This document shows, piece by piece, positions 1-63,263 of a DNA stretch of 64,000 nt. Numbering within the stretch: the stretch's first letter is position 1; each line of letters begins with the position of its first letter. A program made the translations under genes and the position numbers. The stretch is taken from the NCBI GenBank assembly GCA_014155875.1, contig JACEFZ010026832.1, forward strand, positions 248,001-312,000, in the 5' to 3' direction. Origin of the DNA: Cepaea nemoralis. Its lineage: Eukaryota > Mollusca > Gastropoda > Stylommatophora > Helicidae. Under the pieces are notes generated by a model. The model ran no database searches. It saw only the letters and a program-made list of their open reading frames with translations, and was not told the origin of the DNA.

Positions 1-1553
1 CCACTTGTGTGGGGGCATAAAGGATAACGTCACGTGGCCAACTTTGGTAGTTTGCCATATAAACCCGAGTTAGGGCCAACTAGGGGGACTTGGAAATGTG
101 GCTCTAGTCAGAGTGCAGGGCACTGCAGTGCCAGTGGAAATAATATCTACCGTGTGTTAATTAGTGACTTAATTTTACACGTGCCTATAATGGCAGATGT
201 AGATATGATTGATAGGACTGCAGTAGTGCCATTTAAGGTATAACCTATTATAATATTAGTTCTAATTAATATAGACTGTAGCCTTGTTAAAACTATAGTG
301 TGATGATTAGCACTGTTAGTGGAAAACTAGCTAGAGTAGAATAGTGATATTGGCTCTGCTAAGGTGAATAGAATACTGAGGTTGCACTCTGTATGGGTCT
401 TTCCTTGTCATAGCCTGATTCGGCCCTAGGTGGGTAGCTAATCTGCTCTGTGACATAGTTTAGTTAGCTAAAGATCATTAAGCAAGGCAATAGGCTTACA
501 CTCAGCCAATAGGATCAGTGACTAGTACTATCACCAGATGTGTTGTTTCTATCCTAGGTTCCCTACCAGATCCGAGGAAACTCAACAAGTTGTTAGGAAA
601 GGTTCAAATCCCATTCGGAAGAACACCAGTGGAACAGTCAATAAAGTTGCGTACAGAACGTAACTAAAGCTAGAAGGAAGATGATTCACCAAAGAGGGGT
701 GATGATTACTGATGCACCACACAGCAGTAACTAACTGAGAACATTAATGATAACTGATAACTGATAACTGATAACTGATTAATGATAATAGTTACCTAGT
801 GTGATATAATCTCGTGTAATAGAACACAAGACATGATACGTGAGGCTAGATAGACACGAGTGAGGATCAATTACATTAACAATTAACATTAATAACTGTG
901 TACACACTACAAAGGACTTGTGCATTTGTTTAGGAACGATAGGAACGGACATTGTGTAGGGTGCAACCGGTCCATGATTAACTGTTAATACCACCGGTGT
1001 CTACTTCGGATGATCAGGAAATGGGATTACCAGAGGTCTACAGAGACAAATCAGTATCCAGCAGGATGGTTTCGGCACTGGGTGAGATGTACATGTTCTG
1101 ACGTAACGTGCTGTGGTCTATCCTTGCTGGGATCAGCTGACTGGGTTGTTGTCTGAGAGTCCGATTCTACACACTTTATAGAACACGTCACACATTTTCT
1201 TCACATACACGTCTCATATACGTTACACTTTTCTTTTAATAAATTAATCTTTATTAATTTTTAGAAGCAAGAGTTGTTGAGTATGTTGCGTTGGGGAAGT
1301 ATGAGAGGGGGCATAGTACGACAGTGAGAGAGTGACAGGAGAAGGTGTCCACGGGCTGATGGAGTGTGTTGGACGGAAGCTGGTGGATTCTCCAGAATAT
1401 TAAAAAGGAGAAAAATATTATAATATGGGTGTCGGCTCTCTTCACTCCAGGGACGACACTGTAAAGGAGGACACGACACTAGGGGATAGATATAATTAAT
1501 AGGGTCATATTTATTAATTAATCAGGCTATTTATAATCTATTTTACACAAGAG
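1..1553. other. Unassigned non-coding stretch
   Basis: I recognise no gene or known element here. Open frames are short and start or stop at random. Small-scale structure includes a 14 bp palindrome (GGCACTGCAGTGCC, 119-132) and a short array of ATAACTGAT-type repeats at 748-780. The base composition matches the AT-rich repeats that follow. It may be the end of an element lying mostly outside the window. Confidence 0.5.
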
Positions 1554-2270
1554 ATATAGAAATGGATGGAGAATTAAATTATTATTAATATTAACCACAA
1601 AGTGGCTTTAGCAACGAACTGTTAAATAAAGAACTGGTGTAACACAATTCCTATCTGTATAAGGCAAATAAAAAGGCAAGATGGCCGCCGATTGTTTTTT
1701 ACTTGAGACTGGCTGATGTGACCCACTTCAAATAGCTACTGTAAATTCCACCAACCATTTCAGATACTGACATTTTAAACAAAGATATAAAAGTGGATGA
1801 AGAATTCAATTATTACTAATATTAATCCATTAATGACTTTAGCAATGAACTTTTAAATAAATAACGGGTTTAAACAATGGCTGCTGATTTTTTCACTTGA
1901 GACAGACTGGCGTGATCCACTTCAAGCAGCTACTATAAATCCCACCGATCGTTTCAAGTAATGAAATTTTAAACAAAGATATAAAAGTGGATAAAGAATT
2001 CAATTATCACTAATATTAATATATTGCTGACTTTAGCAACGAACTGTTCAATAAACAACCAGTGTAAACAATGACAAGTCCTATCTCAGAAAAGGCAAGA
2101 TGGCTGCCGATTTTTTCGCTTGAAATCGGCTGACGCGGTTCCACTTCAAACAGCTACTATAAACTGCACCGATCATTTCAAGTAATGAAATTTTAAACAA
2201 AGATATAAAAGTGGATAAAGAATTCAATTATTACTAATATTAATCAATTAATTACTTTAGAAACAATTTG
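1554..2270. repeat. Tandem repeat, about 4 units of ~190-230 bp
   Basis: A unit containing ATATAAAAGTGGAT then GAATTCAATTATTACTAATA recurs at about 1555, 1786, 1980 and 2203. Each unit also carries a copy of AAGGCAAGATGGC or its remnant and CCACTTCAAACAGCTACTAT. The spacing (231, 194, 223) shows internal indels. No protein is encoded. It looks like a local non-coding array, possibly internal to an unrecognised DNA transposon. Confidence 0.75.
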
Positions 2271-3559: not shown

Positions 3560-4990
3560 TTTGGATGGATTTTCAAACTTTCCATCCAAATTTACATACA
3601 TGTGGAAAGTGTCATCACAGTATATGTTTTATTTGTGGATGAAAAAGAACATTTTCGGCGAAGCGTGTTTTTGTGAATTTGTAAACTCATGGCCCTGTGC
3701 CATGGTGACTGTGCATGCGCATATCAATCAAATTGGCATTACACTTTCACTTTTCAACACTCAATTTGACCTACAACAGTTAAAGAGAACACAAGTTTAA
3801 AGACTATTAATAACTTATTTGTATACTCGTACTATCTTTTAATCATTTAATATGACGGAACATATTTTTGAAGTCAGTTTTCATAATCTACCTATGACCC
3901 GTTGGTTGAGACCATCCCCGCACGCGGAGAAAAATGAAAACAGCACATTGAACTGTAAATAATTTTTTTCTGGCGCTTTCAATAGAAAACCATCAATTAT
4001 AGATGGATCTTCGAATTCTGCATCAAATTTTTCGGAAATTTGGAAAGTTTCACACTAAACTTGCTTTAATTATGGTTGAAAAACAGGCAAACCTCTTACC
4101 ATCATGAAACCCAAAATGGCGGCTTGACTATATTATAAATATCTTTGTAGAACAAACATTGTGTTCTTGCTAGTGTAGTCGTAAGCAGTCCGCCTGTCAC
4201 GTGGGAGACCAGGGTTCTGTTCCCAGCTGGGCACCAATTTTATTTTTATTTTCACAAAATTATTAGGTGATACAATAGGAACTATTAAACATTACGAACT
4301 AAAATATTATATAGTACTAAGAAACTGAAAATTTGTGAAAAAAGTGTGCTCTATGGATATGTGCGAGCTGCCGACTGCCGGGGAGCGCTTCCCACAGAGG
4401 CATCGGAATCGATGGATCCAATAGGTGTCTTTGTTTAATGTAAATTTTAATTGCCATATAAAATATCGCCCCTGAATCAGCAAAGTTTCATCGCGTAAAC
4501 TTGCTTGAATTGTGCTTGAAAAACAGATTTTCTGCGAAGATGTAACTTTGTGAATTGGAAACCCACAGGTCATGATGTGACGGCCGCCACATAATGACAT
4601 ATCGATTGCGCTACACTTTTCAACACACAAAACATGCAATTTGAACTGTTAAAGAGAACACAAATTTAAAGATTATTAATAATTTTTTTTGTATACTTGT
4701 ACTATTTTGTAATCATTTAACATGACGGAACATATTTTTGAAGTCAGTTTTCATACGACCGCTTGAGACCATCTCGCATGCATACCCGCTTATGGAGGTA
4801 ATCAGACACACTGGAGAGTTCCACTTACGGGCGAACAGCATGAAAAATCACAACTCGTCTCACCTTCACAAAATTGTGAATATCTTCACTTATACGTGAC
4901 ATACAGGCATCATTGAGGTACCATTAGATTTTGAATTTCAAGGCCTATCTTCTGTGGCCGTCTCATTTGTAAATACTCAAAATTAAATTG
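3560..4990. repeat. 1.4 kb repeated block A with tRNA-like segment
   Basis: This block aligns along its length with 5925-7330. Shared landmarks are AACATTTTCGGCGAAGCGTG, the tRNA-Asp-like segment, GAGCTGCCGACTGCCGGGG and the end segment GGTACCATTAGATTTTGAAT. Indels are frequent and no shared long reading frame exists, so it is a non-coding repeat. The last ~130 bp resembles the terminal segment of the MITE-like element at 49.1-50.35 kb, so part of the block may derive from that family. Confidence 0.7.
4162..4234 (+). ncRNA. tRNA-Asp-like segment (pseudogene or SINE head)
   Basis: The stretch contains a degenerate A box around TAGTGTAGTCGTAAGCAG, an anticodon arm CCGCCTGTCACGTGGG with anticodon GTC in the expected loop position, a short variable region AGACC and a B box-like GGGTTCTGTTCCC. 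This order and wording match metazoan tRNA-Asp(GTC). The acceptor stem does not pair and the B box has lost the conserved GTTCGA core, so I read it as a tRNA-derived SINE head or pseudogene, not a working tRNA. Confidence 0.6.
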
Positions 4991-5044
4991 ATGATAGGGC
5001 TCACTACCCTATGACATAAATTTAAATTACCATCAATTATCAAT

Positions 5045-5280
5045 CATTAGCGTGTTCCATTGTGCCATTACCCGAAGTAAAAACAAAAGTCATGTACGGA
5101 GTCAGATCGCCATTGAAAATCTCGTCCCGGAAATCGCTGTCTAATTTACCATGCATTCTTTCGACGTCATTCATTCATTCAAATCTCACGTGACAATAAC
5201 ACACGTCATCCTGGGTTTTCCAGGAAAGGTAGGCTTAATATTCCGTGCACGGCGATTGGTTGAAAACATGGTGAACTTTT
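5045..5280. repeat. Dispersed repeat block, copy 2
   Basis: Second copy of the ~220 bp block at 3172-3400, with scattered substitutions and a short insertion before AGGCTTAATATTCCGTGCAC. It is followed to 5590 by two short related segments (around 5330-5420 and 5525-5590) sharing GATAGAATTGCATCAATT. No coding evidence. Confidence 0.7.
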
Positions 5281-5925: not shown

Positions 5926-7330
5926 TATCTGGAAAGTTTCATCGCAGTACTAGCTCTTTTGTGGATGTAAAAGAACATTTTCGGCGAAGCGTGTTTTTGT
6001 GAAGGGGTGCCATGTGATGTGCCATGGTGACTGCGCATGCGCGTATCGATCGGCATGGCATGTTACACTTTCACTTTTCAACACTCAAAACGTGCAATTT
6101 GACCTACAACAGTTAAAGAGAACACAAGTTTAAAGATTATTAATAATTTATTTGTATACTTGTACTATCTTTTAATCATTTAACATGTCGGAATACATTT
6201 TTGAAGTCAGTTTTCATAATCCGTCTATGACCCGTGTTGGTTGAGACCAACCTTGCGCGCGGAGAAAAATGAAAACGGCACGCCTAACCGTAAATAATGT
6301 TTTTCTGGCGCTTTAAATAGAAAACCATCAATTGTAGATGGTTTTTCGAATTCTGCATCAGATTTTTCAGAAATCTGGAAAGTTTAATCGCTAACTTGCT
6401 TTAATTGTGGTTGAAAAACAGGCGAAAATGTGTTACGATCATGAAACGCAAAACGGCGGCTTGTCTATATAAAAATCTTTTTGGAAAATTTATTGTGTTC
6501 TTGCTAGCGGAGTCATGAGCAGTTCGCCTGTCACGCGAGAGGCGCAGGAGACCGGGGTTCTCTTCCCGGTTGGACATTTTTTTTTTTTTAAATTGTTCAC
6601 AAAATTATTAGGTGATATAATAGAAACTATTAAACATTACGAACTAAAATATTATCTAGAACTAAGAAACTGGAAGTTTGTGAATAAAGTGTGCTCTATG
6701 GATCTGTGCGAGCTGCCGACTGCCGGGGAACGAATACCACGGAGGCAGCCGAATGATCGCGATCGGCATCGGTTTAATGTGAATTTTAATCCCAATATAA
6801 AATATTGCTCCTGAATAGTTTCATCGCTAAACTTGCTCAAACTGTGGTTGAAAAAACAGATTTTCTGCGAAGATGTGACTTTGTGAATGGGTCATGACGG
6901 CCGCACATATCGATTGCGCTACACTTTTCAACACACAAACGTGCGATTTGGCCTACTAAAGTTAAAGAGAACACAATTTTAAAGATCATTAATAATTTAT
7001 TTGTATACTTGTACTATTTTGTAATCATTTAACATGAAGGAACATATTTTTGAAGTCAGTTTTCATACGACCATTTGAGACAATCTCGCACGCATACCCG
7101 CTGGGGAGGAATAGGACACACTAGAGAGTTACACTTACGGGTGAATAGTATGAAAAAATCGCAACTCCTATCACCTTCACAAAAATTTGAATATCTTCAC
7201 TTATATTTTATAAGTTATAAGTTATAAGTGACATACAGGCATCATTGAGGTACCATTAGATTTTGAATTTCAAGGCCAATCTTCTGTGGCGGATTCATTA
7301 GTAAATTCTCAAATTTATAATCGTGATAGG
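5925..7330. repeat. 1.4 kb repeated block B with tRNA-like segment
   Basis: Diverged copy of 3560-4990 in the same orientation. It contains the second tRNA-Asp-like segment and the same terminal GGTACCATTAGATTTTGAAT. Short open frames here (for example 6515-6814) are open only because of local composition; the matching frame in block A is closed. Treated as non-coding. Confidence 0.7.
6496..6576 (+). ncRNA. Second tRNA-Asp-like segment (pseudogene or SINE head)
   Basis: Homologous to 4162-4234: degenerate A box near TAGCGGAGTCATGAGCAG, CGCCTGTCACGCGAGA anticodon arm (GTC) and a B box-like GGGGTTCTCTTCCC. An ~8 bp insertion (GGCGCAGG area) disrupts the variable region. A T run follows directly, as expected of a Pol III terminator or an old SINE body. 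Confidence 0.55.
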
Positions 7331-7451
7331 ACTTGACAATCATCAATCAATCTCTTCTCTTCAGCTTAGACTTAGAGGAAGTAAAGTTAGTAAGCAATAT
7401 AATATAATTAATAAATATAACGTAACAACAGCGTAGAAAAGAAATACAATA

Positions 7452-7535
<84 letters not shown>

Positions 7536-7872
7536 ATTTCAAACAATATAACGGATACATTAAGTACGTTAAAATAGTTCATAACACGCAAAAACAATAC
7601 AACAAACCTAATCTCTTCTGCCATGTTTTACAGTCGGAACCTCAGTACTGCTTCCGGTGGAAAACATCCGTTCATCATCATCATCATCATCACTGAATAT
7701 GCATTGCTATTGGTCTGTCGTGCAGGTGCAGGACGAGCTTGAGGGAGTCGCCAAGTCCAACTTATAAATGTTATCCCGTTCTCGGGTTTATATCTCGTTG
7801 TAATGCAAATTGTGTGTGTGTGTGTTTTTTTTTAAACGTAAGATCTTTCCAAGGTTTAAAAAAAAAGAGTGT

Positions 7873-7919
<47 letters not shown>

Positions 7920-7951
7920 GAAAGCAGAATCTCAAGCGATATCTATAACAT
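7331..7951. other. Non-coding stretch with TA, GT and poly-G microsatellites
   Basis: No gene seen. Simple repeats are (TA)n at about 7455-7523 running into GT repeats to 7534, a CAT repeat at about 7676-7693, GT repeats at 7811-7826 and 7869-7886, and an uninterrupted run of 32 G at 7887-7918. Glycine-rich open frames through the G run are artefacts of the repeat. Confidence 0.85.
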
Positions 7952-8322
7952 TAACAGTGTCCTGTTATGAGGTTGGTAGGGATGGTGCGCAAGCTAAAGA
8001 TGCATTAGCTAATAATGCACGCTTGAGCACCATAGCTAGGGGTAGCCATGGGGGTTGTTAGATGACAACAAAAACAGTGACAATCTGACCATAGACCGGT
8101 GAGGTCGCATGTATTATTGTGAATCCATCTGGCATGTAGTATATTGCGTTGAGTCGGAGTACCTTTTATAATCAACAACCTTGTATGCTGCCTTTTGTAC
8201 AAGCCAATAAACCTGAGCCTTTTGTTATCGCCGGCCTACATTGTTGATGTGAGAGAATGCGACCTCTGAGTTGTCGTCACCACTTGTCTGATCCGGCCTT
8301 CTTTAGATCGCCTACACTGTTT
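7952..8322 (+). repeat. Left direct repeat (LTR) of TE-A
   Basis: Matches 14033-14237 joined to 20370-20540 nearly base for base (for example GGATGGTGCGCAAGCTAAAG, CTTTTGTACAAGCCAATAAA). AATAAA within CCAATAAACCT at about 8204-8209 could be the LTR polyadenylation signal. The intact copy shows that the split in the right repeat is a clean insertion. Confidence 0.7.
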
Positions 8323-49090: not shown

Positions 49091-49117
49091 TCTCATTATA
49101 TAAAGATATCTATTTTA

Positions 49118-50354
49118 GCATGAACCATCAGATTTTAAATTTGAGTATTTACTAATGGGACCACCACCGAAAGATAGGCCTTGAGAAACCGAATCTAATG
49201 GTACCAAGATGTTGCATGTATGTCAATTAGAAGCGAAGATATGCAACTTTGAGTGTCGTGATCGTAAACACAGAAATTAATTAATATAACTACTAATTAG
49301 TGGCCATTTTTATACGCTAATTAGGTAACATTGCATTCTATCTAAACAGGATATAACACATATCATGCGTTGCACAATTCCGCAGAATACAAGATACAAC
49401 TTACCAGGGTTTAAAGCTAATATAAAGAATGCTCAGTGGTAATTAATGAATATAACTACTAATTAGCGGCCATTTTTATATGCTAATTAGGTAACATTGC
49501 ATACTATCTAAATAGGATATAACACATATCGTGCGTTGCACAATTCCGCAGAATACAAGATACAACTTACCAGGGTTTAAAGCTAATATAAAGAATGCTC
49601 ATGGTAATTAATGAATATAACTACTAATTAGCGGCCATTTTTATATGCTAATTAGGTAACATTGCATACTATCTAAACAGGATATAACACATATCGTGCG
49701 TTGCATAATTCCGCAGAATACAAGATACAACTTACCAGGGTTTAAAGCTAATATAAAGAATGCTCGTGGTAATTAATGAATATAACTACTAATTAGCGGC
49801 CATTTTTATATGCTAATTAGATAATGTTGCATACTATCTAAACAGGAATTAATCCATTATGTGCGTAGCATCATTCCGCATAATACAATATATTACGTGC
49901 CAGGGTTTAAACATAATATTAAGAATGCACTTGGTAATTAATTAATATAATAACTAATTGGCTGCCATTTTTATATGCTAATTAGATAATGTTACATCAT
50001 ATGTAAAAATAGATGACATGAGCGGTTAGGCTTCGCTACACCGATCGCAATGATGTATGGTTGCTAGGGTGTTCGTGTATGGTTGCTAGGATGTTCGTTT
50101 AAAAATAAACAAACTACTCTAGTTTTGATAACTTCTGCTATGACCTTGGTTCGGACACGAAAAAAAGATGTGCAGAAGAGATCTTTTGTGTCAATTTCTG
50201 CGTTAATGATCTCGACACTCAAAGTTGCATATCTTCGCTTCTAATTGACATACATGCATCATCTTGGTACCATTAGATTCGGTTTCTCAAGGCCTATCTT
50301 TTGGTGGTCGTCCCATTAGAAAATACTCAAATTTAAAAATCTGATGGTTCACCC
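49118..50354. mobile_element. MITE-like element with ~150 bp terminal inverted repeats
   Basis: Ends are inverted copies: TGAACCATCAGATTTTAAAT near 49121 against ATCTGATGGTTCA near 50339-50351, extending inward through GGTACCATTAGATTCGGTTT to CAAAGTTGCATATCTTCGCT. Both ends are flanked by TA (49116-49117 and 50355-50356), as for Tc1/mariner-type MITEs. No transposase. The interior is mostly a tandem array. Related termini occur at about 4860-4990 and 7190-7330. Confidence 0.82.
49270..50000. repeat. ~167 bp tandem array inside the MITE
   Basis: Units containing TAACTACTAATTAGCGGCCA and CAGGGTTTAAAGCTAATATA recur at about 49275, 49442, 49608, 49772 and 49937. The middle three units are almost identical; the outer ones diverge. 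No coding. Confidence 0.88.
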
Positions 50355-50356
50355 TA

Positions 50357-50783
50357 ATATAATAATACAACAAGTATTAAGTAATTATTGAATTAAATTA
50401 ATACTTACCTTTAGATTTGCGAAATTGACAAAACTTTCCAGAAAATACGGATGACTGCTTGAAGCTTGTAATTTAGCTCAAAACCGTGAAAGAAATGTGG
50501 CCGATACTTTAGTTGTGAAATACGTTTATAGTGGTTGGCTTCTCGAGAACAAAGTTAATTCAAAACAGTTGAAAACACACTGGTGCATAGGCCTTAACGG
50601 AAGTGACTGATAAACGTCAAAACTTATACCATTGGCTGGATTCAACCTTCGTAGTGCCTCGTTTTCGATTTTATCTGCGAACAGTCTTATTTTTCGATTT
50701 TCACCGCCGAATTTCTCGTTTCCGTTTTCCGCTAGTAAGAGTAGCGAGAATACAGGGGGGGGGGGGTGGGGGGGGGGGGGGAA
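50357..50783. other. Unassigned stretch ending in poly-G
   Basis: No gene recognised. G tracts at 50755-50766 and 50768-50781 are separated by a single T. The 61-85 residue frames here run into Gly codons of the G tract and are not credible genes. Confidence 0.5.
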
Positions 50784-51566
50784 CATAAAGCATAAAATAA
50801 CGCCTAGTCTAAAACATCAAAATAATAAATATATGCGAATATTCATACGAAAACAATATGCTTTATTCGTCCCCACTCTGTTTTAGGACAGTCCTAGAAA
50901 CACTCAAGCGTGACATCTTCACATCATGTGAGATGAGAAGCATAAGAGGCTCAGCTGGGGGGGGGGGGGGGGGGGGGGGGGGGGGAGGAAATAGCGAGAC
51001 AAATGAGAAACTAAGAACAGGTGTAAGAATTAAATGGTTCACAGATTTGGTTAGAATGGGAAAAGATCAACTAGCTGAAGCGTTCTTCTTATACGTGAAA
51101 ATATGAATAAAATTGGGTGGAACTGCGGTAAAGCTGTGAAAATGTAAAAAATATAAAATGACACACAGTATAACCACACAGTTATACACAGCTCGGAATT
51201 CTGAGGTGAGTATGAACATTTTTTTCAAATTTTCATTTTCTCTTCACTGCTTTCATTTTTTCATCTTTTTGTTCTTTTCGTCCTGTTTTGATGTAGTCAT
51301 AGGAGATCTCCTTGACTATATGTTGTGTTTTGTGCATGTGTTTGTTTGCTGATGAAGGCTAATCGCCGCAACGTCCTGTGTGTATCGTAAAAACATAAAG
51401 CATAAAATAACGCCTAGTCTGAAACATCAAAAAAAAATAAAAAAATGAATATTCATACGAAAACAATATGCTTGATTCGTCCCCACTCTGTTTTAGGACA
51501 GTCCTAGAAACACTCAATCGTGACATCTTCACATCATGTGAGATGAGAAGCATAAGAGGCTCAGCT

Positions 51567-51598
<32 letters not shown>

Positions 51599-52007
51599 AG
51601 GGGAGGAATAGCGAGACAAATGAGAAACTAAGAACAGGTGTAAGAATTAAATGGTTCACAGATTTGGTTAGAATGGGAAAAGATCAACTAGCTGAAGCGT
51701 TCTTCTTCTACGTGAAAATATGAATAAAATTGGGTGGAACTGCGGTAAAGCTGTGAAAATGTAAAAAATATAAAATGACACACAGTATAACCACACAGTT
51801 ATACACAGCTCGGAATTCTGAGGTGAGTATGAACATTTTTTTCAAATTTTCATTTTCTCTTCACTGCTTTCATTTTTTCATCTTTTTGTTCTTCTCGTCC
51901 TGTTTTGATGTAGTCATAGGAGATCTCCTTGACTATATGTTGTGTTTTGTGCATGTGTTTGTTTGCTGATGAAGGCTAATCGCCGCAACGTCCTGTGTGT
52001 GTCGTAA
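50784..52007 (+). repeat. Recent tandem duplication of ~0.61 kb with poly-G
   Basis: 50784-51390 and 51391-52007 are nearly identical, including a 64-codon frame that is the same in both. Each unit contains a long G run (about 50959-50985 and 51567-51597). Differences are mainly in G-run length, one short insertion (TAGGGGA) and a few substitutions. No protein family recognised. Confidence 0.9.
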
Positions 52008-52250
52008 TTCTGTTATGTAAAGCTGCACTACTTTGTGTCATTTTATATTTTTTACTTCTTCTACTTGAAAACATCTTGATACAAGGCGAGATAACGACGA
52101 AGAAAAAGAAGACTAGAAGGAATAAAAGAGATATTAGAGAAATTAATTTTGCCTTTAATACAAGCGAAACACAGAAAATAGCATCTGCCTCCTCCCTGTC
52201 ACGCTTCACGGCAAAAGCAATAGGGAAAATGGAGAAGAGGAAGAAGCGTT
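52008..52250 (+). other. Left flank of the palindromic element, ending in AGCGTT
   Basis: Contains an open frame ending in a Lys/Arg cluster (MEKRKKR) that is cut by the element. The last six bases AGCGTT (52245-52250) are repeated directly after the element at 63258-63263. No family recognised in the frame. Confidence 0.6.
52245..52250. repeat. Target-site duplication, left copy (AGCGTT)
   Basis: Exact 6 bp match to 63258-63263, directly abutting the palindrome end. Confidence 0.8.
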
Positions 52251-52283
52251 AGTAGTATGTCAGGTCCTAACTAATTATGAAAT

Positions 52284-52316
52284 ATGGAGCTGCTCCATAA
52301 TTTTTTACTATATAAA
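52284..52316 (+). promoter_or_regulatory. Subterminal hairpin and TATA box, left arm
   Basis: ATGGAGC-T-GCTCCAT (52284-52298) is a perfect 7 bp stem with a single-base loop, followed by TATATAAA at 52309-52316 pointing into the element. Both are conserved in the right arm, where only the hairpin loop base differs. They may serve as a promoter or as part of a replication or integration end. Confidence 0.5.
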
Positions 52317-52699
52317 AAGTCTAGCTCCACAAGCGAAACGTCACAAAAGCGGACCGCAAGTGACATTTGACCTGTCAAGGGATGCAACTCATGAATAAAT
52401 AAGCGAGTGGTCTTACACGATTACCTCTCTTTTTTGGGGAATATTTTTTTTTGAAACTTTAATAATTGCTGATAGTATTAGTTTAGTGAGCGAGACCACC
52501 AGCCAACGATTGATGCTGTGTTAGGGGTACAGTGCTCTTCCTCCTCTGTTTCTTCTTTTTGTCTTTTTTTAAAATCTGGATTTGGACAGAAACACTATCA
52601 TCATTCCATGGGTGATGTGTAAGGCATAGAGTTACAGTGCGTTTCCTCAGGGTGGTCAATGGGGTGTGCAGGTGGGGGTAGCAGCTCAATGGTGGGGCG

Positions 52700-54830
52700 T
52701 GGGTGTCAGCGTGTGGTATAGGACTAGGCAGTTAGAACCTTGGATCATGATGGGCGTCATATGACAAACCTATAAGTAAAAATGTAAATATGGCGGCTAT
52801 ATGATCTGTAGAGCGTCGTAGTGGTGTAAACACTATCATCACACAGGTTACAAATGAAAATCTTAAAAAGTAAAAAATGGCCGATAGTATTGATTTTAGC
52901 GGGTATAGCTTAGTAAAATTCGTTGGTAAGGGGTGGGTAGCGGTTGTTAGTGGTTTGTAGAGGGTCATAGTGGCTTATTCACTATCATCATACAGGGTAC
53001 AAATTAAAACCTTACAAACTAAAATATGGCCGATATTATTGATTTTAGCGAGTATAGCTTAGTAAAATTCGTTGGTAACGGGTGGGTAGTGGTTATTACT
53101 GATCTGTAGAGGTCGTAGTGGCTTGTTAACTATCATCTCACAGGTTACAAATTAAAACCTTAAAAAGTAAAAAATCGCCGATATTATTGATTTTAGCGGG
53201 TATAGCTTAGTAAAATTCGTTGGTAAGGGTTGGGTAGCGGCTGTTAGTGGTTTGTAGAGGGTCATAGTGGCTTATTCACTATCATCATACAGGGTACAAA
53301 TTAAAACCTTACAAACTAAAATATGGCCGATATTATTGATTTTAACGGTTATAGCTTTGTGAACGTCGATGGTAAGGGGTGGGTAGCGGTTATTACTGAT
53401 CTGTAGATTGTCGTAGTGGTGTAAACACTACCACCATAGGGTAACAAATTAAAACCTTAAAAAGGTAAAGATGGCCGATATTATTGATTTTAGCGGGTAT
53501 AGCTTAGTGACAGTCGATGGTTAAGGGTGGGTAGCGGTTATTAGTGATGTGTAGAGGGTCACAGTGGCTTGGTCACTGTCATCACACAGGTTACAAATGA
53601 AACCTTAAAAAGTAAAAGATAACCAATATTATTGATTTTAGCGGGTATAGCTTAGTGAAAGTAGATGGTTAGGGGTGGGTAGCGGTTATTAGTGGTCTGT
53701 AGGGGGTCACAGTGGCTTGGTCACAATCATAATACGGTTACAAATGAAAACCTTAAAAACTAAAAAATGACCGATATTATTGATTTTAGCGGGTATAGCT
53801 TAGTTAAATTCTTTGGTAAGCGGTGGGTAGCGGTTATTAGTGGTTCTTAGAAGTCGTATTGTAAACAATATTATCATACGTGTTACAAACGACAACCTTA
53901 AAAAGTGAAGATGGTCGGTGTTATTGATTGTAGGTGGTATAACTTAGTGAAAGTCGTTGGTAAGGTGTGGGTAGCGGCTATTAGTGCCCTGTAGTGTGTC
54001 GTAGTGACCTATACACTATCATCATACAGGTGACAAGTGAAAATCTTAAAAAGTGAAGATGGTCGTTGTTATTGCTTGTAGGTGGTATAACTTAGTGAAA
54101 TTTGATGGTAAGGGGTGGGTAGCAGTTATTATTGGTCCGTAGAGTGTCATAGTAGTGTAAACACTATCATCAATAGTTACAAATGAAAAGCTTAAAAAGT
54201 AAACATGACCGATAATATTTATTGCAATGAGTATAGCTTAGTGAAATTCGATGGTAAGGGGTGGGTAGCGGTTATTAGTGATCCGTAGAGTGTCATAGTG
54301 GTGTAAACACTATCATCACAAGGTTACAAATAAAAACCTTAAAAAGTAAAAATGACCGATAATATTGATTGCAGCGGGTATAGCTTAATGAAATTCATTG
54401 GTAAGGGTGGGTAGCAGTTATTAGTGGTATTAGAGTGTCTTAGTGGCCTATACACTATCATCACACAGGTTACAAATGAAACCCTTAAAAAGTAAAAAAA
54501 TGGCCGATATTATTGATGAAAGCGGGTATAGCTTAATGAAATTCATTGGTATGCGTGGGTAGCAGTTATTAGTGGTCTCTAGAGTGTCGTAGTGGCCTAT
54601 ACCCTATCAGCACATAGGCTTCAAATGAAAACATTAAAAAAGTAAATATGTCCGGTATTATCGGTTGTAGCGAGTATGTCTTAATGAAATTCATTGGTAA
54701 CGGGTCTGTGAGTGGTGGTAAGGTTAGATAGGTGCTTTTGATCATTGTTAAGGGTGGTCGAGTGGGGCGGTGGTAGATAAATATATGTCCGTTCCTTGAT
54801 AATAGCCAGATGGTAAGATTCATATTAAAG
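52700..54830. repeat. ~150 bp tandem array, left arm (about 14 units)
   Basis: GGTGGGTAGCGGTTATTAGT recurs about every 150 bp (52931, 53080, 53229 and onward). Units also carry ACACTATCATCACACAGGTT and AAAAAGTAAAAATGGCCGAT. Divergence between units is moderate. Minus-strand open frames here reflect the repeat. The equivalent right-arm array has fewer units. Confidence 0.9.
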
Positions 54831-55019
54831 TCTAAAGATTGAACTCATAGGTGGCTGATCTGACGGTGACCACCTGGGTGACTCATCACGGGGCTATGTC
54901 GGTGAGGGTGAACATAGTGAAAGTGTTCAGACATGTCTTTAGGGAAAACCGGAGGATGACTCAGAGCGTACTGACCGCATAACGATACACATGGGTAATG
55001 GTTACATCGGAGCAAGTAT

Positions 55020-55340
55020 GGAACTGCTTCCGGTCGCGTTGTAATGACTACAACCAGACCACGTGCTCACTGGCTAAAGCCGGTCAACGATGGCGTCGCA
55101 TCCGATCACACGTGGTAATGGCAAAACCAGACCACGTGGCTAAAGCTGCTTAAAGATGGAGCTGTATCCGTTACACATGGGTAATGGTCACATCCGATGA
55201 AATATTGCGCTGCTTCCGGTTGCATGTGTAATCACTACAATCAGACAGCGGGCTAACTGGCTACAAGTGATCAACGATGGCGTCGCATCCAACTACACGT
55301 GGTAATGGAGAAACCAGATCACGTTTCTAAAACCGATCAA
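55020..55340. promoter_or_regulatory. CACGTG-bearing repeats upstream of the gene block, left arm
   Basis: Imperfect repeats of GATGGCGTCGCATCCGATCA and ACGTGGTAATGGCAAAACCA place four CACGTG sites at about 55060-55300. CACGTG is the canonical bHLH E-box. They sit between the ~150 bp array and the ORFs, where a promoter is expected. Regulatory function is inference. Confidence 0.4.
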
Positions 55341-55350
55341 AGATGGCGCT

Positions 55351-55590
55351 GTGTCCGGTCTTGTGTCTTATGGGATACAACCGAAACACGTTACTAATGA
55401 CTCAACCGGTCAAAGATGGCTTTGCACCTGGTCACATGACCAGGCAGTGCATAATATTCTGCTGAGTCATTCTACGTCAGCAGATATCGTGTATATTGCG
55501 TCCACCATTCACCGTCTAGAAGTACCAGTCTCAGTGAATAGCAACCAGTTCACAATGTTACAAGTCGATAACGGTAAGTTGGCTTTTTGA
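55351..55590 (+). other. Open frame upstream of the gene block, left arm (79 codons)
   Basis: An open frame without ATG, ending VNSNQFTMLQVDNGKLAF. The right arm (60859-60620, minus) keeps the same 79-codon frame with few replacements. CGGTAAGT at about 55573 is a consensus splice donor in the left arm; the right arm has GGCAAGT there. It may be an exon or leader, or merely an open stretch of the repeat. No family recognised. Confidence 0.3.
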
Positions 55591-55755
55591 TAAATCTTTC
55601 ACATTTTCGTTGTATTTCTCCAAGTAGGCATACGGGTAACACCGGCAATGTCCCATAAGGAGCGCCCCGAGCTCTGAATTTTGCATTTGCTAATAGCAAC
55701 TAATGATACAGCCGAGACACGAGTGTAATGGCCCAGTAGTTCAAAAACAGCGGTA

Positions 55756-56012
55756 ATGGAAGAAACCAAAGTGGAAACTAACCCACAAAATAGCCCAGAG
55801 GGGGAAAGAAATTCGTTCTGGTGCACGTTTGGTCGGCGAGTGCCGCGACTAGAGAGGTTGTCTTCTTCTGTCATCTGGTTGCTCTATACACAGTCATTGG
55901 CGTATCACTACTCAATCTGTCTCGAGACAGCGTCGACGCAGTCGAGGGTAAGTTGTGGATCGCTCTTCCAAGCAGCAGTCTGGGTTACATGCTAACAAAC
56001 CCTGAAATATGA
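55756..56012 (+). pseudogene. Small one-span membrane protein, left arm (frameshifted)
   Basis: ATG at 55756, hydrophilic N-terminus (EETKVETNPQNSPEGE). Around 55800 the reading must change frame to enter the conserved part: TREVVFFCHLVALYTVIGVS (a membrane span), then LWIALPSSSLGYMLTNPEI and TGA at 56010-56012. The stop overlaps the next start as ATGA. I recall small proteins ending in a similar GYLLPNP-type motif next to the LPSN protein in invertebrate Polinton-like loci; this is memory, not a search. Both arms share the same frame break. Role unknown; perhaps a virion membrane or scaffold protein. Confidence 0.55.
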
Positions 56013-56736
56013 GCTTCTACCTGACATTACCGAGTAATGCTGCGCCGAACATGTTTCCCAAGAACACACCAGGTCACTATTTCGTCAAGTTACCGCAGAC
56101 TATTGAGGTGAGTCAACATTTCGAATTGGGTCTGGCCGAAATTCAATTGCCCAACTACTACTGCAATGTGCTAGAGAACGAAGTATGGCTAAGATACATC
56201 CCCCAAACGGTAGAGTGATAAGACAGGCGTGTCCCCTGGTCTGTACAGTTCACCAGACGCGTTTATATCTGCACTGAATCGTCTAATGAAAGATCGGAAG
56301 GTGGACGATCAGCTCTGTGTTCTATTCCATTTCGACAACACATCAAAGAAAGTCATCGTGAAAATACTCGAACCCGGGGGCCACTATTACATTTAGTGAG
56401 AAGTTGCAAGAGATACTAGATACAATTGAAGGTGAAGGGGCGATAGGCCTGACTAACGACCTGCAAAATGTGTACGTATACTGCGATTACATTGCGGCGA
56501 GGCCAGTCGGATACGTCATGGTCCCACTACTAAGGACGGTTCATATCATAAATCAGCGCTCAACCTCAGTGTTTCGCACCTAGGACAAACTTCACTACAT
56601 ACCGCTGAGTCGTTACTTCTTCGACACGGTGGAAATACTTCTAACCATTGATACGGGCACAAAGGTCGTATTCACTACCGAGACTTCAGTGCTAACGTTA
56701 CATGTTCGAGTTTGGAAGAGATCAGACCTAGAATAA
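56009..56736 (+). pseudogene. LPSN-motif protein (putative virion protein), left arm
   Basis: ATG at 56009. The start MSFYLTLPSNAAPNMFPKNT and the segment HFELGLAEIQLPNYY define a family I remember from Polinton/adintovirus-like elements of cnidarians and molluscs, about 240-300 residues and probably a structural protein. The full span here is ~242 codons. A frameshift after WLRYIPQ (about 56205) closes the frame early in this arm. The rest can be followed in other frames through DTVEILLTIDTGTKVVF to the stop TAA at 56734-56736. No enzyme motif. N-terminal beta-rich composition fits a capsid-associated protein, but function is not shown by the sequence. Confidence 0.6.
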
Positions 56737-56992
56737 TAGTGAAATACGGGGCAGTACATCAAAACCCCAGACTGTCCGAAGACATGATATGCCCGACACT
56801 CAGATGATTGATGCCTCGGTTATATTCAAGACTCAGATAACAGCCCACCAAGCAGGAGACAGTTTTATGATTACATGCTAAGTGACATGTACATACCAGG
56901 CTACCAACCGAAAAAACCAACCTACTGAGACAATGGTGTGAAGAAATCCAGAAACAACATGCAATGTGTATAGCTCTGTATGTGAAAATAAA
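56736..56992 (+). pseudogene. Third small ORF and AATAAA, left arm (start lost)
   Basis: Homologous to the right-arm ORF starting MVEYGAVHQ, but here the ATG is ATA (AATAATAGTG) and one extra A in CATCAAAACCCC shifts the frame. TAG at 56971-56973, AATAAA at 56987-56992. Confidence 0.45.
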
Positions 56993-57299
56993 ATGTTGTG
57001 ATGATACTATGTATATCACCTCATATCACATCATCCATTTCGTATAATGACATTATACATTTTTTATTCTTGAAAAATGTACTGAAATACTGTAAAATGT
57101 ACTGAAATACTGTAAAATAAACAGGCATACATTATAATTACGTCTTGGTTGTTGAATTTTTGTTAGTGTTTACACTGTGTATAGTTGTGATGTGATGAGA
57201 GAATGACGCATATTGGTGACAAATTAAAGAAATATTTCAACAAAACTAAGGAAACGAGTTAACTAAAGTAGGAAAAACTGTTGACCATAGTCTGAAATA

Positions 57300-58857
57300 G
57301 CTCAACCAAAATTATGAAAAGTAGGAAACTTTGCAAAACTTAGGAAAATCTGTTACCCAAAAAGGAAAAATATTTGACCACATTTTAATCAAATTTATGA
57401 AAAGTAGGAAAACTTGTTAACCAAATGGCAAACATCTTGGTCAAGTAAGAAAAAGTGTTCACCAAATGTGAAAATATTAGCCAAATTTCAAACCAAACTT
57501 ATAAAAATCTCAGTCAAACATATGAAAAGTAGAAAAATTTGTTAACCAAATGTGAAAAGTTTGGCCAACTTTCACCCAAACTTATGAAAAGTGGGAAAAA
57601 TTGTTGTCCAGATGTGAAAAGTTTGACCAAATGTCACCCAAACTTATGAAAAGTAAGAAATTTTTTTTAACCAAATGTGAAAAAGTTAGCCAAACCTCAA
57701 ATCAAACTTATAAACAATCTCAGTCAAACATATAAAAAGTAGGCAAATTTTATTAACCAAACGTGAAAAGTTTGGCCAGATTTCACCCAAACTTATGAAA
57801 AGTGGAAATTTTTGTTGTCCAGATGTAAAAAGTTTAACCAATTCTCACCCAAACTTATGTAAAGTAGGAAACTTTGCTAACCAAATGGCAAAAATCTTGG
57901 CCAAGTAAGAAAAAGTGTTCACCAAATGTGAAACGGTTAGCCAAATTTCAAACCAAACTTATAAAAATCTCAGTCAAGCATATGAAAAGTAGGAAAATTT
58001 GTTAACCAAACGTGAAAAGTTTGGCCAACTTTCACCCAAACTTATGAAAAGTGAGAAATGTTGTTGTCCAGATGTGAAAATTTTGACCAAATCTCACCCA
58101 AAACTTATGAAAAGTAGGAAACTTTGTTAACCAAATGTTAAAAGTTTGGCCAAATTTCATCCAAATTTATAAAAATCTCAGTCAAACTTATTAAATAACT
58201 AGGAAAATTTATTAACCAAAGTGCAAAATTTTGACCACATTTCAAACACACACAAAAAAAGTAGGAAACTTTGGTAACCAAAGGTGAAAAGTTTGGCCAA
58301 ATTTAAACCAAATCCATAAAAAGTAGGACATTTTGTTGACAAAATGTGAAAAAATTGTGGCCAAAGTTCAACCAATTTTATAAATCTCTCATCCATACTT
58401 ATGAAAAGTAGGAAATTTTGTTGTCCAGATGTGAAATGTTTGACCAAATTTCAAACAAACTCATAAAAGAGTAGGAAACTTTGTTAACCAAATGTGAAAC
58501 GTTTGGAAAAAGTTAATCGAAACTTATAAAAAGTAGGAAACTTTGTTAACCAAATGTGAAAATGTTTGGACAAGTGAAGAAATATTTCGTGCAAAACTGA
58601 TGAAAAGTAGGAAATTGTGTTAGCAAAATAAGAAAAATTTTAGCTACATTTTAGCAAAAATTATAAAAAAGTAGGAAAATTCCTTAACCAACAGGGAAAA
58701 AATATCTCACGTTGTCATTATACATCCCAACCTACTAGAGATATTCGCCTGACCCCTATGCAAACAACAGCTGCATTTCAGAAAATTAAATGTATCTTAT
58801 GTAATAAGTCACGATGGTTGAATGAAAACATAAAATTTCACCAATAAATTGTACAAA
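57300..58857. repeat. Central AT-rich repeat region
   Basis: Degenerate repeats of AAACTTATGAAAAGTAGGAA, TTTGTTAACCAAATGTGAAA and AGTTTGGCCAAATTTCACCC, each ~55-60 bp and often in pairs, run from about 57250 to 58700. They are in one orientation only, so the centre is not palindromic. The remaining ~150 bp is unique AT-rich sequence. No gene. Confidence 0.85.
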
Positions 58858-58924
58858 AAATTAACAATTAAATTTCTCTTTATGTTTCCAAGCTGTTTCC
58901 ATGTGGAAATTTAATTGTTAATTT
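58858..58924. other. 19 bp perfect hairpin at the inner edge of the right arm
   Basis: AAATTAACAATTAAATTTC (58858-58876) pairs with GAAATTTAATTGTTAATTT (58906-58924) around a 29 nt loop. The right half ends where the homology to the left arm begins (TTTCAGACTATGGTC). No equivalent hairpin is present at the left inner edge near 57300. Confidence 0.75.
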
Positions 58925-59219
58925 CAGACTATGGTCAACAGTTTTACCTACTTTGGTTAACTCGTTTCCTTAGTTTTGTTGAAATATTTCTTGAATTTGT
59001 CACCAATATGTGTCATTCTCTCATCACATGACAACTATATACACCGTAAACACTAACAAAATTCAACAACCAAGACGTAATTATAATATATGCCTGTTTA
59101 TTTACAGTATTTCAGTATATTTTACAGTATTTCAGTACATTTTTCAAGAATAAAAAATGTATAATGTCATTATACATATGATGTGATATGAGGTAGTATA
59201 CATAGTATCATCACAAAAT

Positions 59220-59475
59220 TTTATTTTCACATACAGAGCTATACACATTGTATGTTGTTTCTGGATTTCTTCACACCATTGTCTGAGTAGTTCGTTTTTT
59301 TTTTCGGTTGGTAGCCTGGTATGTACATGCCACTTAGCATGTAATCATAAAACTGGTCTCCTGCTTGGTGGGCTGATATCTGAGTCTTGTAGATAACCGA
59401 GGCATCAATCTGAGTGTCGGCACGTCATGTCTTCGGACAGTCTGGGGTTTGATGTACCGCCCCGTATTCCACCAT
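59220..59475 (-). pseudogene. Third small ORF (about 79 codons) and AATAAA, right arm
   Basis: The ATG at 59475 shares one base with the preceding stop (TAATG). It starts MVEYGAVHQTPDCPKT, has an in-frame TGA, then DTQIDASVIYKTQISAHQ and GDQFYDYMLSGMYIPGYQPK. An A run then shifts the frame before the TAG at 59241-59239. AATAAA follows at 59225-59220. The coding-like wording between two stop-start overlaps and a poly-A signal supports a real ancestral gene; its function is unknown. Confidence 0.45.
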
Positions 59476-60203
59476 TATTCTAGGTCTGATCTCTTCCGAA
59501 CTCGAAAATGTAACGTCAGCACTGAAGTCCCAGCAGTGAATGCGACCTTTGTGCCCGTATCAATGGTTATACGTATTTCCACCGTGTCGCAGGAGTAACG
59601 ACTCAGCGGTATGTAGTGAGGTTTGTCCTAGGTGCAAAACACTGAGGTTGAGCGCTGATTCATGATAGGAACCGTCCTTAGTAGTGGGATCATGACGTAT
59701 CCAATTGGCCTCGCCGCAATGTAATCGCAGTATATGTAGACATTTTGCAGGTCGATATTCAGGCCTATCGCCCCTTCACCTTCAATTGTATCTAATATCT
59801 CTTGCAACTTCTCACTAAATGTAATAGTGTCCTCCGGGTTCGAGTATTTTCACGATGACTTTGTTTGATGCGTTGTCGAAATGGAATAGAACACATAGCT
59901 GATCGTCCACCTTCCGATCTTCATTAGACGATTCAGTGCAGATATAAACGCGTCTGGTGTACTGTACAGACCCGGGGGACACGCCTTTCTTATCACTCTA
60001 CCGTTTGGTGGGATGTATCTTAGCCATACTTCGTTCTCTAGCACATTGCAGTAATAGTTGGGCAATTGAATTTCGACCAGACCCACTTCGAAATGTTGAC
60101 TCACCTCAATAGTCTGCGGTAACTTGACGAAATAGTGACCTGGTGTGTTCTTTGGAAACATGTTCGGCGAAGCATTACTCGGTAATGTCAGGTAGAAGCT
60201 CAT
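59475..60203 (-). pseudogene. LPSN-motif protein (putative virion protein), right arm
   Basis: Mirror copy, ATG at 60203, stop TAA at 59477-59475. The N-terminal 50 residues differ from the left arm at three places (for example HFEVGLVEIQLPNYY). This arm keeps the frame where the left arm breaks, but loses it later (about 59945, after LNRLMK) through loss of one A. Thus each arm has a different lesion. Confidence 0.6.
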
Positions 60204-60455
60204 ATTTTAGGATTTGGTATCATTAACCCAGACTGCTGCTTAGAAGAGCAATCCACAACTTACCCTCGACTGCGTCGACGCTGTCTCGAGACAGATTGAG
60301 TAGTGATACGCCAATGACTGTGTATATAGCAACCAGATGACAGAAGAAGACAACCTCTCTAGTCGCGGCACTCGCCGACCACACGTGCACCAGAACGAAT
60401 TTCTTTCCCCCTCTGGGCTATTTTGTGGGTTAGTTTCCACGTTGGTTTCTTCCAT
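60200..60455 (-). pseudogene. Small one-span membrane protein, right arm (frameshifted)
   Basis: Mirror copy starting at ATG 60455, with the same early frame break, the same hydrophobic span in the second frame and the same ATGA overlap with the next ORF. The C-terminal tail reads NPKI in place of NPEI. Confidence 0.55.
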
Positions 60456-60619
60456 TACCGCTGTTTTTGAACTACTGGGCCATTACACTCGTGTCTCGGC
60501 TATATCATTAGTTGCTATTGGCAAATGCAAAATTCAGTGCTCGATGCGATCCTTGTGGGACATTGCCGGTGTTACCCATATGCCTACTTGGAGAAATACA
60601 ACATAAATGTGAAAGATTA

Positions 60620-60859
60620 TCAAAAAGCCAACTTGCCTTTCGCGACTTGTAACATTGTGAACTGGTTGCTATCCACTGTGACCGGTACTTCTAGACGGTG
60701 AATGGTGGACGCTATATACACGATGTCTGCTGACGTAGAATGACTCAGCAGAATATTATGCACTGCCTGGTCATGTGACCGGGTGCAAAGCCATCTTTGA
60801 CCAGTTGAGTCATTAGTAACGTGTTTCGGTTGTATCCCATAAGACACGTGACCGGACAC
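60620..60859 (-). other. Open frame upstream of the gene block, right arm (79 codons)
   Basis: Mirror of 55351-55590, ending VDSNQFTMLQVAKGKLAF. Conservation of the open frame between arms is the only evidence for coding. Confidence 0.3.
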
Positions 60860-60879
60860 AGCGCCATCTTTGATCGGTT

Positions 60880-61215
60880 TTAGCGACGTGGTCTGGTTTC
60901 TCCATTACCACGTGTGATCGGATGCGACGCCATCGTTGACCACTTGTAGCCAGTGAGCCCGTGGTCTGGTTGTAGTGATTAAACATGCGACTGGAAGCAT
61001 AGCCATATTTCATCGGATGTGACCATTACCCATGTGTAACGGATACAGCTCCATCTTTGAGCAGCTTTAGCCACGTGGTCTGGTTTTGCCATTACCACGT
61101 GTGATCGGATGCGACGCCATCGTTGACCGGCTTTAGCCAGTGAGCACGTGGTCTGGTTGTAGTCATTACAATGCGACCGGAAGCAGAGCCATACTTGCTC
61201 CGATGTGACCATTAC
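60880..61215. promoter_or_regulatory. CACGTG-bearing repeats, right arm
   Basis: Mirror cluster with CCACGTGGTCTGG and TACCACGTGTGATCGG words; about five CACGTG sites. The repeat unit structure matches the left arm. Confidence 0.4.
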
Positions 61216-61379
61216 CCATGTGTATCGTTATGCGGTCAGTACGCTCTGAGTCATCCTCCGGTTTTCCCTAAAGACATGTCTGAACACGTTCACTATGTTC
61301 ACCCCCACCGACATAGCCCCGTGATGAGTCACCCAGGCGGTCACCGTCAGATCAGCCACCTATGAGTTCAATCTTTAGA

Positions 61380-62760
61380 CTTTAATATGAGTCTTACCCT
61401 CTGGCTATTATCAAGGAACGGACGTATTTATCTACCACCGCCCCACTCGACCACCCTTAACAATGATCAGAAGCACCTATCTAACCTTTCCTCCACTCAC
61501 AAACCCCTTACCAATGAATTTCATTAAGCCATACTCGCTACATCCGATAATACCGGCCATCTTTACCTTTTTAATGTTTTCATTTGAAGCCTATGTGATG
61601 ATAGTGTATAGGCCACTACGACACTCTACAGACCACTAATAACTGCTACCCACCCCTTACCAATGAATTTCACTAAGCTATACCCGCTGCAATCAATATT
61701 ATCGGTCATTTTTACATTTTTAAGGTGTTCATTTGTAACCTTGTTATGATAGTGTATTAGCACCACTATGACACTCTACGGACCACTAATAACTGCTACC
61801 CACCCTTACCAATCGAATTTCACTAAGCTATACCACTACAATCAATAATAGCGGCCATTTTACTTTTTAAGGTTTTCATTTGTCACCTGTATGATGATAG
61901 TGTATAGGTCACTACGACACACTACAGAGCACTAATATCCGCTACCCACCCCTTACCAACGACTTTCACTAAGTTATACCACCTACAATCAATAACACCG
62001 ACCATCTTCACTTTTAAGGTTTTCATTTGTAACCCGTATGTTGATAGTGTTTCCAATACTACGACTTCTACGAACCACTAATAACTGCTACCCACCCCTT
62101 ACCAACGAATTTCAGTAAGCTATACCCGCTAAAATCAATAATATCGGCCATTGTTTACTTTTTAAGGTTTTAATTTGTAACCCTATGATGATAGTGACCA
62201 AGCCACTGTGACCCTATACAGACCACTAATAACCGCCTACCCCCCCCCCCCCCCCCCCCTTAACCATCGACTGTCACTAAGCTATACCCGATAAAATCAA
62301 TAATATCGGCCATTTTTACTTTTTAAGGTTTTCATTTGTAACCTGTGTGATGATAGTGAATAAGCAGCTACGATCCTCAACAGATCAGTAATAACCGCTA
62401 CCCACCCCTTACCAACGAATTTTACTAAGCTATACCCGCTAAAATCAATACTATCGGCTATTTTTACTTTTTAATGTTTTCATTTGTAACCTGTGTGATG
62501 ATAGTGAATAAGCAGCTACGACCCTCAACAGATCAGTAATAACCGCTACCCACCCCTTACCAACGAATTTTACTAAGCTATACCCGCTAAAATCAATACT
62601 ATCGGCCATTTTTTACTTTTTAAGGTTTTCGTTTGTAACCTGTGTGATGGTAGTGTTTACACTACGACACTCTACAGATCATATAGCCGCCATATATACA
62701 TTTTTACTTATAGGTTTTTACATATGACGCCCGTCACGACCCAAGGTTCGAACCGCCTAG
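61380..62760. repeat. ~150 bp tandem array, right arm (about 9 units)
   Basis: Reverse complement of the left array: CTACCCACCCCTTACCAACG recurs about every 150 bp. One unit carries a run of ~19 C at 62241-62259 in place of the usual CCACCCC. The missing units relative to the left account for most of the arm-length difference. Confidence 0.9.
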
Positions 62761-62999
62761 TCCCAGCTGACACGCTGACACCCACGCCCCTCTTCTGAGC
62801 TCCCACCCCCACGCCCGTCCACCCCCTTGACCACCCTGAGGAAACGCACTGTAATCCTACGACTTACACATCACCCATGGAATGATGATAGTGTTTATGT
62901 CCAATGCAGATTTTAAAAAAAAGAAGACAAACAAAAAAGAAACCGAGGAGAAAGAGCACTGTACCCCTAACACAGCATCAATCGTTGGCTGATGGTCTC

Positions 63000-63085
63000 G
63001 CTCACTAAACTAATACTATCAGCAATTATTAAAATACAAACAAAAATCCCCCCCCCCCCCCCCCCCCAAAAAAAAAAGAGAGGTA
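63000..63085. other. Poly-C and A-rich variant near the right terminus
   Basis: A C run (about 63049-63067) followed by an A run replaces the TTTTTTGGGGAATATTTTTTTTTG stretch of the left arm (about 52430-52452). A local expansion, without coding. Confidence 0.6.
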
Positions 63086-63191
63086 ATAGTGTAAGACCAC
63101 TCGCTTATTTATTCATGAGTTGCATCCCTTGACATGTCAAAGGTCACTTGCGGTCCGCTTTTGTGACGTTTCGCTTGCGTAGCTAGACCTT

Positions 63192-63224
63192 TTTATATAG
63201 TAACAAATTATGGAGCGGCTCCAT
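63192..63224 (-). promoter_or_regulatory. Subterminal hairpin and TATA box, right arm
   Basis: Mirror of the left arm: TATATAAAAAGG on the minus strand (TTTATATA at 63192-63199) and the 7 bp stem ATGGAGC/GCTCCAT at about 63210-63224. Confidence 0.5.
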
Positions 63225-63257
63225 ATTTCATAATTAGTTAGGACCTGACATACTATT

Positions 63258-63263
63258 AGCGTT
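63258..63263. repeat. Target-site duplication, right copy (AGCGTT)
   Basis: Exact 6 bp match to 52245-52250. Its position is defined by where the arm homology stops. Confidence 0.8.

Follow-up and report, generated by a model that had tools for sequence, protein, structure and literature searches.

What kind of element forms the long inverted repeat at positions 52251-63257 of a 64,000-nucleotide stretch of the Cepaea nemoralis genome (the window; contig JACEFZ010026832.1, here C24919, positions 248001-312000, in a 3.47-Gb assembly), and how did its two arms come to mirror each other? The initial annotation had proposed a palindromic Polinton-like element, possibly a copy-back defective genome fixed in the chromosome. 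With a probability of roughly three in four, we read 52251-63257 as a decayed, non-autonomous palindromic derivative of a Polinton (Maverick) that arose by snap-back, was mobilised in trans and was pruned at its centre.

Self-alignment of the window confirmed that the palindrome is real and that it joins, as annotated, two head-to-head copies of one element end. The inner parts of the arms (53580-57298 against 62649-58921, inverted) were 90.7% identical over 3,757 columns with 44 gap openings, and the outer parts (52242-53968 against 63265-61503, inverted) 84.5% identical. In a second alignment of the arms the inner blocks (left 54722-57215) were 92-98% identical and the last short block 86%. 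From the ends inward, both arms share the order T (550 bp), A (an array of a 148-bp repeat), S (two 187-bp repeats), G1, G2 and G3. Only the left arm extends past G3, first into satellite C (62-bp unit), then into segment D and a hairpin; the right arm restarts just past this hairpin. The features of the element are as follows; module limits are our own approximate cuts.

52245-52250, no strand: left target-site duplication AGCGTT
52251-52800, plus strand: left terminus module T, tip AGTAGTATGTC
52802-54705, plus strand: left 148-bp tandem array A, 12.9 copies
54706-55360, plus strand: left module S, two 187-bp repeats
55361-56005, plus strand: left module G1, open reading frames (ORFs) with no family match over the cut-off
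56006-56810, plus strand: left penton-like gene G2, frame broken
56811-57220, plus strand: left module G3
57340-58700, plus strand: satellite C (62-bp unit), present in the long left arm and lacking a mirror on the right
58701-58857, plus strand: module D, leading to the hairpin
58858-58924, no strand: central hairpin, with 19-bp stems (58858-58876 and 58906-58924) and a loop of about 29 nt; true centre of symmetry
58921-59061, minus strand: inner end of the right arm; its 141 nt pair with 57158-57298 at 94% complementarity, and the arm is truncated just beyond the hairpin
59407-60206, minus strand: right penton-like gene G2', with a broken frame; the piece 59850-60206 is intact
60207-60852, minus strand: right module G1'
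60853-61502, minus strand: right module S'
61503-62690, minus strand: right 148-bp array A', 7.9 copies
62691-63257, minus strand: right terminus T', tip (reverse complement) AATAGTATGTC
63258-63263, no strand: right target-site duplication AGCGTT

The presence of the same repeat array in each arm, also annotated initially, was borne out, with unequal copy number (12.9 left, 7.9 right). A perfect 6-bp target duplication, AGCGTT, borders the element at 52245-52250 and 63258-63263, supporting insertion as a single unit. On a second contig, C4783, element, flanks and target duplication are those of the window; two contigs thus agree on the junctions at contig level. C4783 was treated as an allele or duplicate of the window locus and not counted as an independent insertion. 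Divergence between the two was patchy, near zero over most of the element and several percent at 60300-62000 and 53000-53500.

The centre of the element had been taken as a retained interior of about 1.6 kb. The 1,622 bp in question (57299-58920) consist of the 62-bp satellite and a segment of about 200 bp that ends in the hairpin. Compared with other copies, this centre is an untrimmed stretch at the inner side of the left arm, and the right arm has lost its counterpart. Across the family the centre of symmetry is a short asymmetric hairpin loop of about 30 nt, present in 13 of the 22 independent loci read (10 of 18 found via terminus searches and 3 of 4 via a penton search). Relative to the fuller arm the loop runs one way in six copies (the window, C13298, C5145, C22751, C9867 and C15344) and the other way in five (C11009, C6540, C25895, C4542 and C21003), and two are symmetric (C23318 and C26539). 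In nine one-sided copies from the terminus-search loci, the short side retained, as judged by eye, only about 4-52 bp of mirrored stem. Truncation points varied among the copies compared, and the junctions of C18617 and C26189, alike on the map, differed in sequence. C26539 shows such a symmetric state: the 5,415 bp fetched, from penton to penton, are 98.9% identical to their own reverse complement over the full length, with a central loop of about 34 nt and no other interior. A symmetric parent in which either arm could be pruned would explain both the two loop directions and the truncations.

The window element is one member of a multi-copy family. Searches with its left end gave at least 103 matches in the genome for a 1-kb query (40 of 4012 first-look candidates scored) and at least 42 for a 310-bp query (40 of 1109). 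At twelve independent insertions the target duplication was exact in seven, matched at 5 of 6 bp in three (C6540, C22751 and C9867) and at 4 of 6 in two (C10809 and C26189). Among 132 cross-pairings of unrelated ends, none reached six matches, two reached five and three reached four. The tip AGTAGT was found at 12 of 12 left ends and 9 of 12 right ends, by a script that sought AGT repeats no farther than 30 bp from where the alignment ends and is therefore biased toward the motif. A survey of vertebrate Mavericks gives the end motif 5'-(AGT)2//(ACT)2-3' and 6-bp target duplications (PMC8097293), features that the AGT-repeat tips and 6-bp duplications of the family match. Together with the penton gene, they support a Polinton affinity of the window element, as first proposed. 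The idea of one defective genome fixed once gives way to a mobile family. In a genome search with the penton (150 of 3028 candidates scored), all 11 pairs of hits less than 10 kb apart on one contig converged (p = 2.4e-7, assuming four equally likely arrangements), and the region between the hits was palindromic in all four of the 11 pairs for which it was fetched.

Phylogenies of the modules were used to compare the arms within a copy. In the tree of module T both ends of one copy were sisters in 9 of 10 pairs, and in that of module S in 6 of 6. In copies with a gene variant in both arms, the variants were also mirrored, namely X, PC4 and G3 for C13298, the zinc finger for C22751, and PC4 and G3 for C23318. 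At the single locus with two haplotypes (window and C4783) there was no sign of tracts of arm-to-arm conversion after insertion; of 36 haplotype differences in the right arm, C4783 had the state of both left arms at 16 and the window at 18. These comparisons suggest that the arms were copied from each other before insertion and that the two ends of a copy are usually closest kin.

Three ORFs had been annotated in each arm. One of them, G2, has relatives and is the sole recognised gene in the window arms, penton (minor capsid)-like and with its frame broken on both sides; the two ORFs upstream of it had no Pfam match over the cut-off. The longest intact piece of G2 in the window is 118 aa from stop to stop, and the longest ATG-initiated ORF of the element is 117 aa. 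Pfam, PHROGs and NCBIfam yielded no convincing match, either to the pieces from the window or to the penton family, and three scans of viral contigs confirmed no relatives. The G2 frame of C11009 matched 131 homologues. A homologue, P0005, was modelled with a penton fold at a predicted local distance difference test score (pLDDT) of 94.2; the best PDB matches of the model were the mavirus penton (E = 2e-11) and then adenovirus penton bases, and further comparison agrees. Judged by the modelled fold of this homologue, G2 is a penton (minor capsid) gene.

Most places in the penton search carry an open frame of 243 aa with no internal stop. Between copies, the ratio of non-synonymous to synonymous substitution rates (dN/dS) of the penton was 0.18-0.53, computed on unshifted 243-codon frames only. 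Pairs with 3'-shifted frames (L041 left, L043 right) or with the shorter C11009 frame were left out of this range; the shifted frames gave 0.39-0.85 and 1.02 (0.29 and 0.61 against C11009), and pairs with the C11009 frame 0.29-0.61. An earlier run on short, partly broken pieces had given 0.20-1.01. Between arms, the penton of C4542 was identical over 243 codons, and that of C26539 differed by two synonymous and six non-synonymous changes (dN/dS 0.92). The between-copy range and the arms of C4542 and C26539 fit a penton under constraint before insertion and drifting after it. To call the element simply defective appears too narrow, the penton gene being apparently constrained between copies.

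Other copies carry further coding modules. ORFs resembling the PC4 coactivator (PF02229) lie at 1116-2018 (plus strand) and 4441-5097 (minus strand) of locus L010 and at 7278-8009 (minus strand) of L024, the first and third with Pfam support, and PC4 is mirrored in C13298. ORFs with C2H2 zinc fingers occur in C5145 and C22751.

In line with the initial annotation, no replication gene was seen in the window element: neither a protein-primed PolB nor an integrase was present among its ORFs, and no ATPase, protease or major capsid gene was seen there. With no PolB or integrase, the element is classed as a non-autonomous Polinton derivative. Elsewhere in the genome, a PolB search gave 95 matches from 91 of 296 candidates scored, long open frames among them, and one place has integrase-like and ATPase-like frames, named by eye, adjacent to PolB. 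By eye, none of the 95 matches lay on a fetched family copy and none of the 150 scored penton places lay within 20 kb of any of them; two contigs were in both lists, with matches hundreds of kb apart. Integration by enzymes supplied in trans would be compatible with these Polinton-type PolB places with long frames in the same genome.

A second palindrome was found in another Polinton lineage. A search with a penton of another class (147 of 2906 candidates scored) listed 88 places with frames of 252-327 aa, and gave two more converging pairs less than 10 kb apart, on C208 and C1514 (90876-99264). On C208 (L047, 67287-71244) the 3,958 bp between the pentons form a palindrome of 99.65% identity. 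The penton is followed by a 176-aa frame and then by a capsid-like frame, inside which falls the centre of the palindrome, a loop of about 20 nt. The capsid-like ORF resembles the F54H12.2-like Polinton capsid protein and may be related to it; it had no significant Pfam or PDB match. The palindrome is bounded: 5 and 10 kb outside it, the flanks of the two sides are unrelated when mirrored, with ungapped identities of 0.23 and 0.27. C208 has the look of a recent fold-back that belongs to a separate lineage; being near-perfect and turning inside an ORF, it suggests a one-step fold-back rather than gradual growth.

These observations can be joined in a model of four steps. A polymerase starting from one end of a protein-primed linear genome would fold back and copy its own strand, leaving the same terminus at both ends. 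Later, each displaced single strand would fold into a full duplex hairpin and be re-primed from its one terminus. Since a self-folding strand needs no separate complementary strand, the arms would be copied from each other; this step should make the arms match when inserted and leave a loop in the middle, and both features are seen. The palindrome would then be inserted by Polinton polymerase and integrase acting in trans, leaving the 6-bp duplications observed. Around or after insertion, one arm would be pruned from the hairpin outward and the arms would decay independently, a sequence of events that matches the observed pattern and whose timing is conjectural. A complete element would, on this proposal, read terminus, 148-bp array, S, G1, penton, G3, 62-bp array, D and a loop of about 30 nt, then the same in reverse, with PC4-like and other ORFs between penton and G3 in some copies. 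We infer a helper, packaging and a role for the penton in the palindrome family.

Several points weigh against this model. Neither extrachromosomal copies nor replication intermediates were seen. Five of the sister pairings have support of only 0.69-0.88, and the ends of C10809 form the one non-sister pair in the T tree. The raw identity of the window's right terminus to C13298 is 0.922, slightly above the value of about 0.91 to the left terminus of the window, and the right end of C22751 is closest to C15344 (0.938). Module S is one-sided in C23318, and in three of the nine one-sided copies (C22751, C25895 and C15344) the sequence past the loop is no recognised arm module. Arm against arm, the PC4 frame of C13298 (six synonymous and six non-synonymous changes, dN/dS 0.24) and one short window piece (three and three, 0.25) do not look like free drift after insertion, on small counts; another window piece gives 1.01. 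A full Polinton with an end identical to the arms, which the initial annotation had led us to expect, was not among the pieces beside PolB at six elements (C10418 on both sides, C215, C21949, C380, C25575 and C8982): these and one downstream piece had no match to T, A, S, G, C or D, and the sole match was on C380, to a repeat that forms part of the zinc-finger query. The tip of the most-read PolB family, AGTAGATGTC, is similar to those of the palindromes and not the same. Very long inverted repeats might, with some small residual chance, be kept alike by other means. The snap-back architecture proposed at the outset is supported by palindrome and loop, but copy-back, like snap-back as a process, we infer from the anatomy of integrated copies.

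Among other origins, growth of the kind proposed for Foldback elements deserves most weight, and we consider it unlikely. On this view the terminal inverted repeats of a Polinton would have extended inward, by unequal exchange or gene conversion, as far as the middle, and copy-back would have played no part. Inverted repeats of such length that hold tandem arrays do recall Foldback and Galileo, and the unequal arrays of the window arms are as this growth would have them. Against it stand the symmetric C26539, with no interior apart from its loop, the apparent one-step turn of C208 and the failure to detect post-insertion conversion at the one locus examined. Fold-back chimeric reads, or another artefact of library or assembly, are very improbable: artefacts are known to take the shape of near-perfect palindromes like C208, yet C208 is bounded by unrelated mirrored flanks, arms diverge by about 2-16% at the loci compared, and C4783 repeats the window junctions. 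Least credible of all is the side-by-side insertion of two ordinary elements in opposite directions with their inner ends deleted. It would account for head-to-head arms in one locus, and is contradicted by the exact outer duplications at 7 of 12 loci, by the same hairpin loop in 13 independent copies and by the convergence of every close pair; no second terminus, which two adjacent elements would each have, is found at the centre, and separate loci show the inverted pair with target duplications of their own. A snap-back origin as a decayed Polinton derivative thus remains our preferred account. A further extension of it, rather unlikely, is that Polintons regularly and recurrently take the form of palindromic snap-back genomes and that this form is selected, in a multipartite or satellite-like virus system where numerous palindromes supply the capsid vertex protein and separate elements the polymerase and integrase.

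The surroundings of the element were also read. Just upstream lies a direct duplication of about 610 bp with about 97% identity (50782-52007), preceded by a 165-bp tandem array (4.3 copies) within a 172-bp inverted repeat (49107-50364), possibly another small mobile element. The region 9278-47248 contains several reverse-transcriptase, gag-like and transposase-like frames, read from translations, and looks rich in other mobile elements.

To our knowledge, that Polintons replicate by protein priming is a prediction from their polymerase and not an observation. Strand displacement with snap-back would be expected to leave, as its trace in chromosomes, hairpin-centred palindromes, arms that match when inserted and a second fold-back that turns within an ORF, and the palindromes make the mode of replication testable by sequence and by a simple rapid-renaturation assay. 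No palindromic or snap-back Polinton was found by title among the matches listed in open-access literature, in searches partly aimed elsewhere. Ordinary vertebrate Polinton/Mavericks have a mean length of about 17 kb and carry single-copy genes flanked by terminal repeats, according to the survey cited above (PMC8097293). The window element resembles them in its AGT-repeat tips, 6-bp duplications and penton (PX) gene, but its body is palindromic with a hairpin loop, and no gene for polymerase, integrase, ATPase, protease or major capsid protein was seen in it.

With Foldback elements such as Galileo and Tetris the window element shares very long inverted repeats holding tandem arrays; Galileo differs in having a P-type transposase. 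We know of no capsid gene in Foldback elements. Symmetric defective adenovirus genomes are inverted duplications of one end of a protein-primed linear genome; those are by-products of virus growth, whereas here we find a chromosomal family. The window element, C26539 and C208 are each a self-complementary duplication of one end, symmetric or looped. Snap-back genomes of adeno-associated virus (AAV) are likewise self-complementary duplications of one genome end, occur in symmetric and in asymmetric forms with a loop, and replicate given helper functions (PMC8235507). AAV is, however, a parvovirus with virion-borne genomes, whereas the present family is integrated, inherited and multi-copy with Polinton-type ends. 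It looks like a type of defective genome turned heritable transposon, its capsid gene kept under constraint.

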